A DNA stretch of 64,000 nt from the NCBI GenBank assembly GCA_903877645.1, contig CAIRES010000035.1, forward strand, positions 124,001 to 188,000, written 5' to 3'. Below the pieces are notes generated by a model, which saw nothing but the letters and a program-made list of their open reading frames with translations, was not told the DNA's origin and did no database searches. Below, piece after piece: positions 33,799 to 37,908 of the stretch. The DNA comes from an uncultured Bacteroidota bacterium (lineage in GTDB: Bacteria; Bacteroidota; Bacteroidia; Chitinophagales; Chitinophagaceae). The first letter of the stretch is position 1. Every line of letters begins with the position of its first letter. The position numbers and the translations under genes were made by a program.

Positions 33799-35754
33799 TT
33801 ATCGCTCAAGGTCAAGCAGCATGGCTTTCCCCTTATCATTGTCGGGGTGCTTTTTGACCAGGTGCTCCAGGCATTTTTTTGCTTTTTCAGGCTGGTTATT
33901 GTTGTGATACCATACCGCGAGGTTCACGAGGTTTTGTTCGTAGTCGGGGTCAAGGGCATTTGCCCGTGTCATGTAATCGTAGGCCATCGCATTATTGCCC
34001 TGCTGCATATAGATGTAACCAAGGTTGGTATTTGCGCTTACATGGTTTGGGTTTTCATTGAGCACGAACTGAAAGACCTTTTGCGACGCTTGTACTTTAT
34101 TAAGTGAAAGGAGGCAGGTGGCATACTTATTTTCAAAGTCGAGGGCGTAAGGCCATATCTGTGTGGCGCGTTGATACCAGGGCAATGCACTATCTGCCTG
34201 CTGTAAGAGATAATATGCCTCACCCGAACGATAGGCTGTCCATGCATCGTTAACGGCCGAAGGCTGTAGCTGTGTAGCGTATGCTGTAACTTTCTGATAG
34301 TTATGTAGCAGGAAGTATGCGCGGATATAATCGCGGTTTTGTTTTTTACGGGCTTCGACATCACCCTGTATACCAAGATAGTACAATGCGGAATCGAGCA
34401 GTCCTTTTGACGGAGCATAGCGCTCATAGAATTCCATGTAGCCACGTGCCTTGGTTATGGCATCGGGCTTGTCGTTGTTAAAGCATTTAAGGCCAAGGAA
34501 AGCTGTTATCTTTTCTTTCATACTGTCTTCTACAGGCCGCTTGCGAATGAAGTGGTCGGTAACCGCCACGTGCGGTATATCTATGCTGCCATTGTGCGGC
34601 ATATGGCAGGTGACACAGTCATTGTTCTTCGCCGCCCGGGCCTGCATGGTCTCTGTACACTGATGCTGGCCCGGCGCATTGCTGTGGCAACTCTGGCAGG
34701 CATTGAGGTATTGGGTGCGCGGGGTGAACTTAACACTGATGTGCGGATTGTGACAGGTGATGCAGCTCATTTTACCGCTCTGCACATAGCACTGGCTTTT
34801 CTTCATTCGCTCTACATGCGAAGCCATGATCATTTTGTCTTGCGCGCCCTCGTACTCAGGCATAAATACATTCATTACTTCCGATAGCTTCATGCCGGGA
34901 TGAAAATCGAAAAATGTTTTACCGTCATTAAGCACCGCTATGCCCTGCAGGTGGCAGCGCTGGCATACATTGTTCTGCAACTCTGTTGACAACCTGCGTG
35001 GGTTTACAATGGTATAGTCAGGCCCTTTTGAGGTGTCAACGGGTACATTGTTTTTTCTGTCTTCCACATGCAGGCTGCCGGGGCCATGGCAGCGCTCGCA
35101 GTCTATACCTGTTTTGAGGGAGGTGTATTTATTTTCGCTGTTGGCTACAAATTGCGGGTAGCCGTTGTGGCAACTCATACATTCTATTTCTATCATCCGG
35201 TGAAAACGGCTATTGGCCCCCTTCTCAAAGCCGGGTGCGAGGTCCCACCGGTGTTTCTGGGTATAAAAGGTAATAGGTGCCTGGTACAGATAGCCATTGA
35301 CGTCAAAAATGTGGGAGTTGGTGTGCTGGCCGGAGCCTACAATGTAGTTGACCCTTTGGATGCGCTTATGTACAGTATCGCCATTCTCAATCCTAAACTC
35401 CATGATATAAAAAGAGTCATTGGTAAAGTAGGGTTTGTAGTAATAGTCGAGTGCGGAGTCGTAAACAAGGGCATGTGCGGGCGCGAAGTCGGCTCCAGTT
35501 TTCTCCTTTGTGGCCAGTCCGAATGATTGCCCCATGCCTGTTTGTATAAAAGTCTGGTACACACTCTCGTGGCAGGTACGACAGGTTTGCATACCTACAT
35601 AGTGCGCGCTGGTATCATATACATTTTTCCACAGAGAGGTTTCATGTGGTTCTTCGTCATTTGTGGTTGCCGGTGTATTGCAAAAGAATGCGGGCAATGT
35701 TATGGTGAACAGTGCAAGAAGCAGGAGCAGTCTTTTGAGCAGGCGTGAGGACAT
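33799..35754 (-). CDS. Seven-haem c-type cytochrome with C-terminal TPR domain
   Basis: Exported multihaem protein of 651 residues. The N-terminus has a hydrophobic signal (LLKRLLLLLALFTITLPAFFC) with a Cys, but the residue before it (Phe) does not fit a lipobox. Seven CxxCH haem sites are at about 58, 192, 219, 264, 331, 353 and 380. Between the first and second lies a ~130-residue beta-rich stretch without haem sites. From about residue 430 to the end are TPR-like helical repeats (AWTAYRSGEAYYLLQQADSA, VSANTNLGYIYMQQGNNAMAYDYMTRANALDPD). The arrangement suggests a periplasmic or surface electron-transfer protein with a protein-binding tail; the partner and reaction are unknown. No terminal reductase or maturation gene is adjacent. 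Confidence 0.88.
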   Translation of the reverse strand: MSSRLLKRLLLLLALFTITLPAFFCNTPATTNDEEPHETSLWKNVYDTSAHYVGMQTCRTCHESVYQTFIQTGMGQSFGLATKEKTGADFAPAHALVYDSALDYYYKPYFTNDSFYIMEFRIENGDTVHKRIQRVNYIVGSGQHTNSHIFDVNGYLYQAPITFYTQKHRWDLAPGFEKGANSRFHRMIEIECMSCHNGYPQFVANSENKYTSLKTGIDCERCHGPGSLHVEDRKNNVPVDTSKGPDYTIVNPRRLSTELQNNVCQRCHLQGIAVLNDGKTFFDFHPGMKLSEVMNVFMPEYEGAQDKMIMASHVERMKKSQCYVQSGKMSCITCHNPHISVKFTPRTQYLNACQSCHSNAPGQHQCTETMQARAAKNNDCVTCHMPHNGSIDIPHVAVTDHFIRKRPVEDSMKEKITAFLGLKCFNNDKPDAITKARGYMEFYERYAPSKGLLDSALYYLGIQGDVEARKKQNRDYIRAYFLLHNYQKVTAYATQLQPSAVNDAWTAYRSGEAYYLLQQADSALPWYQRATQIWPYALDFENKYATCLLSLNKVQASQKVFQFVLNENPNHVSANTNLGYIYMQQGNNAMAYDYMTRANALDPDYEQNLVNLAVWYHNNNQPEKAKKCLEHLVKKHPDNDKGKAMLLDLER

Positions 35755-35782
35755 GATGGTCTTGGCTCATTTTTAGCTGAAC

Positions 35783-35862
35783 ATAGCCAGCGTATAATTC
35801 GATTTTCCTTTTTGTATCAATACATATTGCCCGTTCAGCAGGTGGCTTTCTTTTATTTTAGC
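35783..35862 (-). repeat. Duplicated 3' end of tyrS (distal copy, flank of TA islet)
   Basis: This 80-bp stretch matches 36612-36691, within the 3' end of tyrS, with a single difference (79/80). Read on the minus strand it encodes the last S4-domain residues of TyrS and continues in frame to its own stop at 35773-35775 (ending NYTLAMFS, compared with NYTLAIFG in the intact gene). It has no start codon and is a remnant. Together with the copy in tyrS it brackets the higBA genes. Confidence 0.9.
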
Positions 35863-35889
35863 CGTGAAGATGTTGAAAGCCCTTCTGTT

Positions 35890-36204
35890 TTACAGGATAA
35901 CATTAATAGATGTTGCAGGCAACTCAATTTGCAATTTTACTTTAGCCTTTAGCGCGGAAAATACGCGCATAACAGTATCTATGGTTGAGTTACCTGCACC
36001 ACTTTCAAGTTTTGAGATCTGAGCTTTTTGAACTCCAACAAGCCTGCCCAATTCTTCCTGGGTAAGATGTTGTTCTTTGCGTGCTTGTTTAATAGCATTG
36101 CCAATCATATCCATTTGCAGTTCATACTCGAATTTATCCCTATTCGGTGAGCCTATCGTGCCTATCAATTTATCCTGCACTTCATTTAAAGTGTATGTTT
36201 TCAT
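35890..36204 (-). CDS. higA: HigA-type helix-turn-helix antitoxin
   Basis: DNA-binding antitoxin of 104 residues with an Xre-type helix-turn-helix at about 37-90 (IKQARKEQHLTQEELGRLVGVQKAQISKLESGAG, shown here by its start and end). The N-terminal ~35 residues (MKTYTLNEVQDKLIG) are typical of antitoxins paired with HigB-like RNases. Its ATG overlaps the toxin stop by 4 nt (ATGA), and the order toxin then antitoxin is that of higBA modules. It would repress its own promoter, probably through the inverted repeat at 36567-36588. The pair is AT-richer than its neighbours and is bounded by a tyrS duplication, signs of acquisition. Confidence 0.85.
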   Translation of the reverse strand: MKTYTLNEVQDKLIGTIGSPNRDKFEYELQMDMIGNAIKQARKEQHLTQEELGRLVGVQKAQISKLESGAGNSTIDTVMRVFSALKAKVKLQIELPATSINVIL

Positions 36205-36560
36205 TTCGAGCTTTTTTTCTGTGTTTCTTTATCTTTAAAATATATTGTGCGCATTTGTTTGGCTTTTTGCACTTCTTTGCCCGGTACTTTATCTTGCTTT
36301 TTTATGAATCCATGTGTTGAAACAACAAGGGTATCTGATTCGGTAGTTTTATCCCAAAATGCAAGCATCCTGTATTGCAAGCCCATAAAATGTGTTCTGA
36401 ATTCCCATATTTCTTCAGTTAGTTTTTTGAATAATTCAGGATCTTTTGCGACTTGCGCTTTTCGAATGTTGTATAATATTTTTTCACGTTGATTTGCAGC
36501 AATTTTTTCTAAAAAACTAACAGCTTCTTCTAAGAATAATATTTCGAAACGCTTGTCCAA
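36201..36560 (-). CDS. higB: HigB-type RelE/ParE-superfamily toxin
   Basis: Likely ribosome-dependent mRNA interferase of the HigB (phage-derived Gp49-like) group, 119 residues. Characteristic segments are FEILFLEEAVSFLEKI, LFKKLTEEIWEFRTHFMGLQYRMLAFWD, with the conserved E-x-R and Y-R residues, and VVSTHGFIKKQDKVPGKEVQKA, the usual C-terminal signature. The start is TTG at 36560; no ATG or GTG is available earlier in the open frame. Stop overlaps the antitoxin start. The toxin frame appears intact, so the module is probably active. Confidence 0.85.
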   Translation of the reverse strand: MDKRFEILFLEEAVSFLEKIAANQREKILYNIRKAQVAKDPELFKKLTEEIWEFRTHFMGLQYRMLAFWDKTTESDTLVVSTHGFIKKQDKVPGKEVQKAKQMRTIYFKDKETQKKSSK

Positions 36561-36566
36561 CTACGT

Positions 36567-36588
36567 AAAGATAGATAAAAGTATCTTT
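36567..36588 (-). promoter_or_regulatory. Inverted repeat, possible HigA operator
   Basis: AAAGATA (36567-36573) and TATCTTT (36582-36588) form a 7-bp inverted repeat with an 8-nt spacer, just upstream of the toxin start codon. The spacing and position fit an autoregulatory antitoxin operator; binding is inferred. Confidence 0.35.
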
Positions 36589-36601
36589 TTAAGGAAACTT
36601 G

Positions 36602-37879
36602 TTATCCAAATATAGCCAGCGTATAATTCGATTTTCCTTTCTGTATCAATACATATTGCCCGTTCAGCAGGTGGCTTTCTTTTATTTTAGCGTCCACTTC
36701 GGTTACTTTTTCTTTATTAATGCTGATGCCGCCATTCTGGAGCATTTTGCGGGCTTCGCCTTTTGAGGGGAGTACCTTGCTTTCAGCCAGGAAGGTGATG
36801 AGGTCTATGCCCTCGGCAAGGCCTGCTTTGGCGCCGGTTACCTGTGGCACGCCATCCATCACTTCGAGGAGTTGCTGCTCGTTGAGCGAACGCAATACAT
36901 CAATAGACGACTGCCCGAAAAGAATATCGGATGCCTGTTTGGCAAAGGCCAGGTCTTCTTCGCTATGTACGAGTATGGTCATTTCATCGGCTATGGCCTT
37001 TTGCAACTTTCGCTGGTGCGGGGCAGTTTCATGTTCAGCTATCAACGCCTTTATTTCATCAACCGGTTTGAAGGAGAATACCAGCGCCATTTTTGCTGCA
37101 TCGGCATCGGGCAGCTTCATCCAGAACTGGTAGAATGCATAAGGGGAAGTACGTTCACGATCGAGCCATACATTACCACCTTCAGATTTACCGAATTTAC
37201 TGCCGTCGCTCTTGGTGATGAGTTTACAGGTGAAAGCAAAGCCTTCGCCACCGCCTTTGCGGCGGATGAGTTCGGTGCCGGTGACGATATTACCCCACTG
37301 GTCGGCACCGCCCATTTGCAGCTTTACATTGTGGTTATTAAAAAGGTAGTAAAAGTCGTAGCCCTGTATGAGCTGGTAAGTGAACTCAGTAAAAGACATA
37401 CCCGTTTCCAGGCGTTTTTGTACCGAGTCTTTGGCCATCATATAATTGACAGGGATGTGTTTGCCCACATCGCGTATAAAGTCGAGGAAACTGAAAGACT
37501 TAAACCAATCATAGTTATTGACCATTACCGCACCGTTTGGAGAGGTGCTGCTGAAGTCGAGGAATCTCCCGAGCTGATTGCGGATGCCATTGCAGTTATG
37601 CTCAATAGTTGTCACATCAAGTAAGTTACGTTCCTGTGATTTGCCTGATGGGTCTCCGATCATACCTGTAGCGCCGCCAACTAGTGCGTAAGGCTTGTGG
37701 CCGGCCCGTTGCAGGCGCATGAGCAGGGTGATGGGCAACAGGCTGCCCACATGCAGGCTATCGGCGGTAGGGTCGAAGCCTATATAGGCAGAGGTCATTT
37801 CTTTTTGTAACAGCTCGGTGGTACCGGGCATAATGTCCTGTATAAGATTTCGTTGCTGTAAGTCGGCTATGAGGTCCAT
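36602..37879 (-). CDS. tyrS: Tyrosyl-tRNA synthetase
   Basis: Class I aminoacyl-tRNA synthetase that charges tRNA-Tyr, 425 residues. I chose the ATG at 37879 (MDLIADLQQRNLIQD); the open frame reaches a TTG at 37903 but this adds residues not found in the family. Signature motifs: HVGS in DSLHVGSLLPITLLMRLQRAGH, the tyrosine-pocket stretch FTYQLIQGYDFYYL, GGADQWGNIVTG, and KFGKSEGGNVWLD as the KMSKS loop. The C-terminal ~65 residues are an S4 RNA-binding domain (KGEARKMLQNGGISINKEKV). The last 80 bp are duplicated beyond the TA module, implying that the present 3' end was brought in with, or copied during, insertion of higBA. Confidence 0.97.
   Translation of the reverse strand: MDLIADLQQRNLIQDIMPGTTELLQKEMTSAYIGFDPTADSLHVGSLLPITLLMRLQRAGHKPYALVGGATGMIGDPSGKSQERNLLDVTTIEHNCNGIRNQLGRFLDFSSTSPNGAVMVNNYDWFKSFSFLDFIRDVGKHIPVNYMMAKDSVQKRLETGMSFTEFTYQLIQGYDFYYLFNNHNVKLQMGGADQWGNIVTGTELIRRKGGGEGFAFTCKLITKSDGSKFGKSEGGNVWLDRERTSPYAFYQFWMKLPDADAAKMALVFSFKPVDEIKALIAEHETAPHQRKLQKAIADEMTILVHSEEDLAFAKQASDILFGQSSIDVLRSLNEQQLLEVMDGVPQVTGAKAGLAEGIDLITFLAESKVLPSKGEARKMLQNGGISINKEKVTEVDAKIKESHLLNGQYVLIQKGKSNYTLAIFG
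36612..36691 (-). repeat. 80-bp direct repeat, copy within tyrS 3' end
   Basis: Proximal copy of the repeat at 35783-35862, offset by 829 bp. Both copies have the same orientation, as expected for a target duplication around an inserted segment. Confidence 0.9.
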
Positions 37880-37900
37880 TTCAAAAGTATATTGAGGGGG

Positions 37901-37908
37901 CAAAAATA
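37901..37908 (-). promoter_or_regulatory. Candidate -7 element for tyrS
   Basis: On the minus strand TATTTTTG, matching TAnnTTTG, 21 nt before the chosen start codon; this supports ATG 37879 over the TTG at 37903, which would leave no leader. Confidence 0.4.

Follow-up and report, generated by a model that had tools for sequence, protein, structure and literature searches.

In the genome analysed here, a toxin-antitoxin pair lies directly behind an intact tyrS gene, and behind the pair stands a second copy of the tyrS 3' end. This raises the question of how such a pair came to settle between a core gene and its neighbour, and of which of the two gene ends belonged to the resident chromosome. 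The window, i.e., the whole stretch of 64,000 nucleotides that was analysed (G000:C35:124001-188000), is part of a draft assembly of 88 contigs that is 98.3% complete. The features of the locus are as follows.

36602..37903, minus strand: tyrS, tyrosine--tRNA ligase, intact, 433 aa, ending NYTLAIFG-stop (TIGR00234 over cut-off)
36612..36691, minus strand: proximal 80-bp tyrS tail block, inside the working gene (repeat comparison)
36602..36611, minus strand: last 10 bp of the working tyrS, ATTTGGATAA, coding for ..FG-stop (6/10 versus the distal copy)
35863..36611, minus strand: AT-rich stretch separating the repeat blocks, 35% GC
36201..36560, minus strand: predicted higB toxin gene, Gp49/RelE-like, TTG start (PF05973, 52.4 bits, cut-off 23.9)
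35890..36204, minus strand: predicted higA antitoxin gene, helix-turn-helix (PF01381, 45.2 bits, cut-off 23)
35783..35862, minus strand: distal 80-bp tyrS tail block, 79/80, in none of the listed genes (repeat comparison)
35773..35782, minus strand: distal tail end, GTTCAGCTAA, MFS-stop (tail alignment)
33799..35754, minus strand: multihaem cytochrome c/TPR gene, starting 18 bp past the distal stop

Anatomy of the repeat and the islet

It is clear that the duplication of the tyrS tail reported in the initial annotation is real. The blocks of the 80-bp direct repeat (35783-35862 versus 36612-36691) lie on the same strand at an offset of 829 bp and agree at 79 of 80 positions, the single mismatch being T at window position 35812 versus C at 36641. 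In BLAST, the match of the repeat to itself has an E-value of 7.6e-34 within the window and of 3e-36 within the short locus, and the stretch 35700-36700 compared with its own genome gave one matching place, its own locus. Both endings that had been read, NYTLAIFG-stop in the proximal tyrS and NYTLAMFS-stop in the distal copy, were found. The same holds for the description of the islet: a toxin-first higBA pair alone, with two genes between the repeats, is AT-richer (35.1% GC in 35863-36611) than tyrS (49.6%) and the downstream gene (48.5%), and the working tyrS, with its full length and its family match, is undamaged. As had also been noted, no integrase is visible, given that higB and higA are the only genes of the islet, and that no integrase or transposase family was detected in ten neighbouring ORFs that were scanned between 30.9 and 42.7 kb.

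The islet genes are predicted from their protein families and order to form a type II toxin-antitoxin system of the HigBA kind, with a RelE/Gp49-type toxin and a downstream helix-turn-helix antitoxin. HigB matches Gp49 (PF05973) at 5.7e-14 and HigA matches HTH_3 (PF01381) at 9.8e-12, both over the Pfam cut-off, and higB precedes higA on the minus strand with a 4-bp overlap. A PDB search with HigA gave 12 matches, led by HipB-type helix-turn-helix antitoxins, and zero matches with HigB. PADLOC returned a part-profile match for HigB (NsnC) and 15 for HigA, none of which was taken as a system call.

Relatives of HigB with less than 60% identity are encoded on 27 plasmid records, almost all of which bear names of Bacteroidota (mainly Bacteroides, Parabacteroides, Phocaeicola, and Hymenobacter), and on 4 phage records, and relatives of HigA are encoded by four viral contigs. 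Within the genus, a HigB relative occurs in 12 of the 35 genomes and a Gp49 match in 16 of them, and the genome-wide HigB search gave no second higB at the tyrS site. The pair in the window is an ordinary member of a mobile toxin-antitoxin family, and its unusual part is its position. The closest HigA found is that of an orphan gene in G008 (78% protein identity), followed by that of G007 (68%). The G008 orphan is located 2 kb ahead of that genome's cytochrome gene, so that other lineages, too, have had this toxin-antitoxin family in the vicinity. This agrees with a donor that carried higBA there, but also with an older, vertical presence of the pair. The initial annotation had considered higBA at this locus with no duplication as contrary to its account, and what was found is this orphan antitoxin gene, which has neither a higB nor a tail copy nearby.

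The tyrS/cytochrome junction across the genus

The genus is placed near Flavipsychrobacter, in the Chitinophagaceae, by named records matching the same protein. All 35 genus genomes, own included, have tyrS, and in 21 of them (own included) a multihaem cytochrome/TPR gene follows next on the same contig. Eight of these 21 junctions are empty, with a gap of 25-89 bp, the start of the cytochrome gene being uncertain in two of the eight (L016 and L021). The other 13 are filled with 218-4010 bp of varied cargo, and toxin-antitoxin- or nuclease-like genes are found in nine of the 13. In a Flavipsychrobacter MAG (L084, tyrS 79%), the junction is apparently empty as well, with about 40 bp. The cargo of the filled junctions is as follows.

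G000: higBA
G030 and G003 (77% identical): YhcG nuclease
G005: DUF6934 and a small antitoxin-like ORF
G004 and G001 (95%): PIN
G016 and G013 (72%): PIN_3 behind a small ORF of the G005 kind
G025: GIY-YIG
G027 and G031: single unassigned ORFs
G028 and G026: no clear gene

The label of antitoxin is given here from position, and no Pfam family matched the two small ORFs scanned next to PIN genes. No integrase was noticed in the other tyrS islets, ten proteins of which were scanned.

Empty and filled junctions are interspersed on the tyrS tree. Given that the two states alternate on this tree and that the cargo is varied, insertions have recurred between tyrS and the cytochrome gene in this genus. 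The claim that higBA was inserted at the tyrS 3' end is thereby supported, with the junction empty in some relatives, occupied by different cargo in others, and tyrS intact; the comparison with relatives that had been proposed also led to other toxin-antitoxin- or nuclease-like genes in that place. Regarding the empty sites that this comparison was expected to reveal, they exist in the genus, but no same-species empty allele was found, and the sister species is itself filled.

This sister species, G023, is joined to G000 with 100/100 support in the tyrS tree, the bootstrap of which is not fully settled. Its junction carries an Abi-like gene, inside which the tyrS contig ends and the cytochrome contig begins. 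The two pieces are 85% (tyrS contig) and 76% (cytochrome contig) identical to a protein of G015 that is encoded directly behind tyrS and matches Abi_2 at 2.4e-4, below the cut-off; the G023 piece scanned alone gave zero family matches.

TAnnTTTG is a promoter consensus. A promoter-like sequence of this form precedes the cytochrome gene at 14 of 25 computed starts, three of which are not start codons, and is absent at 11, including those of G000 and G023, a distribution that did not settle the ancestral junction.

The two ends of tyrS

The 90-bp tails of the two copies differ at five positions, at -40, -10, -7, -6, and -4 from the end, and the identity of the repeat does not extend into the final 10 bp, stop codon included. 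Four of the five lie within these final 10 of the 90 bp (binomial 7e-4; Fisher test of 79/80 versus 6/10, 4e-4; the boundary was picked post hoc for both). At -40, the distal copy and G023 share the same base and, for this reason, the distal 80-bp block may carry no change of its own, in which case the event may be recent, or the block may have been homogenised. The block of G000 agrees with the other tyrS rows at 42-72 of 80 positions, the sister species giving 71-72. Given that the two copies agree with each other at 79 of 80 positions and with any other row at 72 or fewer, the duplicated block appears to be DNA of the resident lineage.

Phe occupies its position at the tail end in 36 of the 37 tyrS rows; IFG-stop is the commonest ending (11 of the 37 rows, own row included), and MFS-stop is found in one congener. 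The end of the working gene, ATTTGGATAA, is 8/10 identical to that of the sister species. Over the 10 bp on which this comparison rests, the two tyrS ends, IFG-stop and MFS-stop, look like two alleles. The last 10 bp of the working tyrS, we infer, probably arrived with the islet. Among the congeners, FG-stop and FS-stop are both scattered over the tree, a distribution that does not tell which end is ancestral.

Rarity of gene-tail copies

In 37 genomes (the 35 of the genus and two others of the family), the last 200 bp of tyrS were compared by local alignment with the downstream DNA, which was taken as far as the cytochrome gene, for at most 2.5 kb, or until the contig ended. A copy of the tyrS tail was present in G000 and G008 alone, with different extents. 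The eroded copy in G008 (44-57 bp, 79-84% identity) ends LAILG-stop and sits between an unassigned 163-aa ORF and a different higBA pair, with a HigB_toxin match (PF09907). A duplication lacking higBA in relatives had been regarded in the initial annotation as telling against its account; here a tail copy does occur with other cargo, and its other length and other divergence make it look independent of that in G000. No tail copy was found in the 12 other filled, contig-linked junctions, nor in G023 (469 bp behind tyrS and the contig before the cytochrome gene). Among 80 further tyrS loci from named genomes, two of which are the same contigs as G001 and G006 and one a close relative, 79 have enough downstream DNA and 0 have a tail-end copy. 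It is clear that tail duplication is rare even at the tyrS junction. One of the loci searched, L134, has a single 25-bp internal tyrS match that looks like chance.

A loose scan for gene-end repeats did not separate toxin-antitoxin loci from controls, with 2 repeats flagged in 32 toxin-antitoxin loci (202 kb), 3 in the window, and 14 among the 28 control loci (509 kb). Of these 14, 13 have both copies inside long ORFs, and the remaining one (L262) is an intergenic repeat. A strict rule, which takes the tail of a long ORF with a second copy outside long ORFs, was applied to 1.39 Mb of genus loci (overlapping) and 0.69 Mb of others. It gave five distinct matches (G000, G008, G020, G030, and L292) and matched 0 of the 28 control loci. 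Given that the loci were chosen around toxin-antitoxin genes, tyrS, and dnaJ, these counts give no rate for the association of tail copies with toxin-antitoxin genes. Two of the matches were set aside: the 83-bp gene-tail copy of G030 is accounted for by tandem duplication of a neighbour gene, and the match on the viral contig L292 consists of two ORFs that overlap and resemble paralogous phage genes.

A second case at the dnaJ gene

Repeats were also sought around the 24 HigB matches of the genus. In G020, a Gp49 higBA pair is flanked by the 3' end of dnaJ, a gene identified by eye, and by a 72-bp copy of the dnaJ end. The HigB of this pair is only distantly like that of the window (36%). A dnaJ tail copy is found in G020 alone among the 30 genomes with a scanned dnaJ locus, one locus having 343 bp downstream; three further genomes gave no locus and two gave no dnaJ match.

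The proximal dnaJ tail of G020 is identical to that of the close relative G026 at 70 of 72 positions. The distal copy, which still reads GFFDKLKDVFSS followed by two stops, agrees with the dnaJ tails of G020, G026, and G028 at 60, 58, and 56 of 72 positions, respectively, and with the other rows at 51 or fewer; some of these rows differ in tail length and are out of register. Eight of its 12 differences are from G/C to A/T. Folding indicates a hairpin with a nearby T-run behind the distal copy (z -4.6) and no hairpin behind the proximal tail (z -0.2); a consensus/pattern terminator scan did not flag the former. We take the distal copy to be the old gene end, which has been drifting since its role was lost. 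In G026, the DNA downstream of dnaJ differs, and this is not a clean empty site.

Three other candidates were rejected. The higBA pair of G007 lies between 205-bp repeats of a dispersed family, for which a 1.4-kb query has 43 matches in G007 and 37 in G014. The 83-bp and 133-bp repeats near Gp49 genes in G028 look like dispersed intergenic repeats, and the 21-bp exact repeat around higBA in G015 is too short.

Route of entry of the islet

We consider that there is about an even chance that the higBA islet entered the junction by one-sided, homology-anchored recombination. The incoming DNA would have come from a relative with higBA directly behind its own tyrS. A homologous joint would have formed in the tail of the resident tyrS, about 10 bp short of its end (near -11), by which the working tyrS would have gained the donor's last codons (IFG-stop), followed by higBA. 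The non-homologous far end of the incoming DNA would then have joined the resident tail at about -90. The resident stretch from -90 to -11, i.e., the 80 bp between the joints, would thus end up twice, the resident end (MFS-stop) and the cytochrome gene would be displaced behind the islet, and the distal tail copy would be an inert by-product. Entry of this kind would make an integrase unnecessary.

This route is favoured because a shared resident block with two alleles is the geometry that it predicts, because the site is empty or occupied by unrelated cargo in congeners, and because the hairpin at dnaJ of G020 stands behind the distal copy, as if this were the old end. The fact that the block lengths differ, with 80 bp in G000, 57 bp in G008, and 72 bp in G020, favours illegitimate joints. 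No donor was found. The absence of tail copies from the 12 other junctions and the G008 orphan as nearest HigA pull in opposite ways, and leave the likelihood of this route unchanged.

Insertion with long target duplication, which the initial annotation had named as described for restriction-modification genes, would have brought higBA from elsewhere, the 80 bp of target being doubled by repair or replication with no donor tyrS involved. The architecture and the variable repeat length agree with it, both dnaJ tails of G020 seem derived from the lineage's own dnaJ, and restriction-modification genes insert with long, variable target duplications, according to the part of PMC3031569 drawn on here. 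The product is well described by this idea; the final 10 bp of the proximal tail, however, resemble another tyrS allele, and for this reason a donor's tyrS end probably came with the islet. A plain insertion requires that the insert happened to begin with ATTTGGATAA, completing the frame as IFG-stop, and by our rough estimate the chance of such a start is about 1 in 1000 or less. On the whole, plain target duplication is a serious contender, though a rather doubtful one. If, instead, the tyrS 3' end were the attachment site of an integrative element that rebuilt the gene end and later lost its integrase, in the manner of e14 and phage 21 in icd or of cis-mobilisable remnants, then direct repeats at the 3' end of a gene whose frame is restored, several inserts at the same gene end, and HigB relatives on plasmid and phage records would all be in place. 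Nonetheless, an integrase is missing from the islet, from the ten neighbouring ORFs, and from the scanned proteins of the other tyrS islets, whose filled junctions are also without a shared core repeat. In addition, block lengths and boundaries differ among G000, G008, and G020, and the identity ends 10 bp short of the gene end, where this model expects identity throughout. An integrase-type rebuild of the tyrS end is less likely, and a remnant of such an element is improbable here.

The tail and an islet segment could also have been doubled or exchanged by tandem duplication or unequal exchange at a hotspot, and then trimmed. G030 offers an example at another gene end, where the 83-bp tail copy is accompanied by a diverged duplicate of the neighbour gene, but G000 repeats nothing beyond the tail, and its two tail ends look like different alleles, so that we hold this origin to be very unlikely. 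An assembly artefact, in which two strain variants were joined at their shared 80 bp, is the least probable origin of all. The assembly is a draft, and one strain could be empty and the other filled; however, a false path would need the end of higA to read into the start of the tail, the copies differ at one base of the block, the sequence is free of Ns, and congeners do have both filled and empty alleles.

Relation to known systems

Insertion of restriction-modification genes with long target duplication is said to have been described by Nobusato et al. in 2000, a work cited in PMC3031569 and PMC2654758. The present case shares with it a putatively addictive gene unit, long direct target repeats of variable length, and the lack of an integrase, and differs in that a toxin-antitoxin pair is concerned, that the 3' ends of core genes are used, and that the proximal end seems to hold the codons of another allele. 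The element e14 and phage 21 integrate in icd, where the 3' end of the gene is duplicated and the frame is rebuilt by the incoming DNA. At tyrS, in contrast, there is no integrase, the islet has 0.75 kb, and identity stops before the gene end.

Homology-facilitated illegitimate recombination was proposed for the arrays of orphan immunity genes in Vibrio, as stated in the sections of PMC5361080 considered here, which put its frequency in other organisms orders of magnitude below that of ordinary recombination. In these T6SS effector-immunity arrays, as far as those sections go, there is likewise a homologous anchor on one side and an illegitimate joint on the other, and old gene ends and orphan protective genes remain downstream; the displaced gene is a toxic effector, whereas here it is tyrS or dnaJ, and here the duplicated stretch is resident sequence. 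The tails of G000 fit this geometry of an anchor at one end and a non-homologous joint at the other, the donor allele not having been found. Small variable segments between core genes also combine short variable cargo with conserved neighbours, and in the excerpt of PMC2884548 used here direct repeats flank 10-18% of them, 66-94% of the repeats being shorter than 30 bp. By comparison with the segments of that excerpt, the repeat at tyrS is 80 bp long and is a gene tail.

Toxin-antitoxin pairs are widely called mobile, and the arrival of lone chromosomal pairs free of integrases and insertion sequences is seldom legible in sequence. Here the scar is readable, with a duplicated resident block, two allele-like ends, and the same junction empty or otherwise filled in congeners. 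High mobility is implied by the distribution of toxin-antitoxin systems in the passages of PMC2654758 referred to here; its integrase-free form becomes testable by strain comparison at one defined junction, and its signature, a gene tail repeated within about 2 kb, can be sought in any genome set. It is a speculative and still unlikely generalization that, in this genus, the 3' ends of the core genes tyrS and dnaJ act as integrase-free anchors for interspecies moves of toxin-antitoxin and other small defence genes, the arrivals swapping in the donor's codons and leaving datable, orientable scars of the resident tail.

Exit of the islet

The initial annotation had gone further and made recombination between the repeats the only clean exit. 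This is not supported, given that congeners have empty or otherwise filled junctions with no tail copy. A clean exit by recombination between the two copies is possible, which is not to say that it is the sole one: when the flanks were joined in a script, the product was a 433-aa tyrS with no internal stops and a NYTLAMFS end, with the start of the cytochrome gene at +18 bp.

Region upstream of the cytochrome gene

The multihaem cytochrome c/TPR gene that usually follows tyrS is preceded by the promoter-like motif TAnnTTTG, placed 12-16 nt upstream of its computed start (which in three cases is not a start codon), in 14 of the 25 loci. The motif is absent upstream of the start in the other 11, including those of the genome under study (G000) and of its sister species (G023), and the segment of the window upstream of this gene (35755-35794) does not contain it. 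This distribution suggests, from sequence, that transcription of the cytochrome gene may differ among species.

Immediately upstream of the cytochrome gene, three compared genomes, G005 (locus L007), G003 (L080) and G024 (L076), carry a lone small antitoxin-like ORF (MERIV.VDD...), which is 50-59% identical to the small ORF of G016. In G016 and G013, the small antitoxin-like ORF is followed by a PIN_3 gene. The tyrS tree places G005 as the sister of G016, so the toxin may have been lost after new cargo came in on the tyrS side.

An orphan higA, 78% identical to that of the window, is found in G008 (L075, contig C298, 6145-6456), 2.06 kb from the downstream cytochrome gene and with no higB match beside it. 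Its neighbours, both named by eye, are an adenine-deaminase-like gene on one side and a 638-aa WG-repeat-like gene on the other.

Other toxin genes and repeats

The window's own genome has a second Gp49-type toxin gene (PF05973 match; G000:C68:43374-43646), and no repeat was among those listed by a scan of the 7 kb around it.

In G030 (L244, contig C26, 411-724 and 1867-2211), a gene that resembles a metallophosphoesterase (named by eye) has a second copy of its tail, and a diverged duplicate of the neighbouring gene accompanies that copy. Considered as a target duplication, this copy was rejected, because it is explained by a tandem duplication, including the neighbour, that mimics one.

In G028 (L243, contig C40), a Gp49 toxin gene is surrounded by an 83-bp intergenic repeat (cacaaaatccgcgaaatcc...) that occurs three times, at 182, 426 and 1306. 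A clustered repeat of approximately 100-350 bp occurs at L222 (G007:C42:164-165 kb) and at many other sites of G007 and G014 (43 and 37 matches, respectively). Its clusters adjoin a higB with a shortened 5' end and higA, and they may represent an array of repeats, either cassette-like or intergenic.
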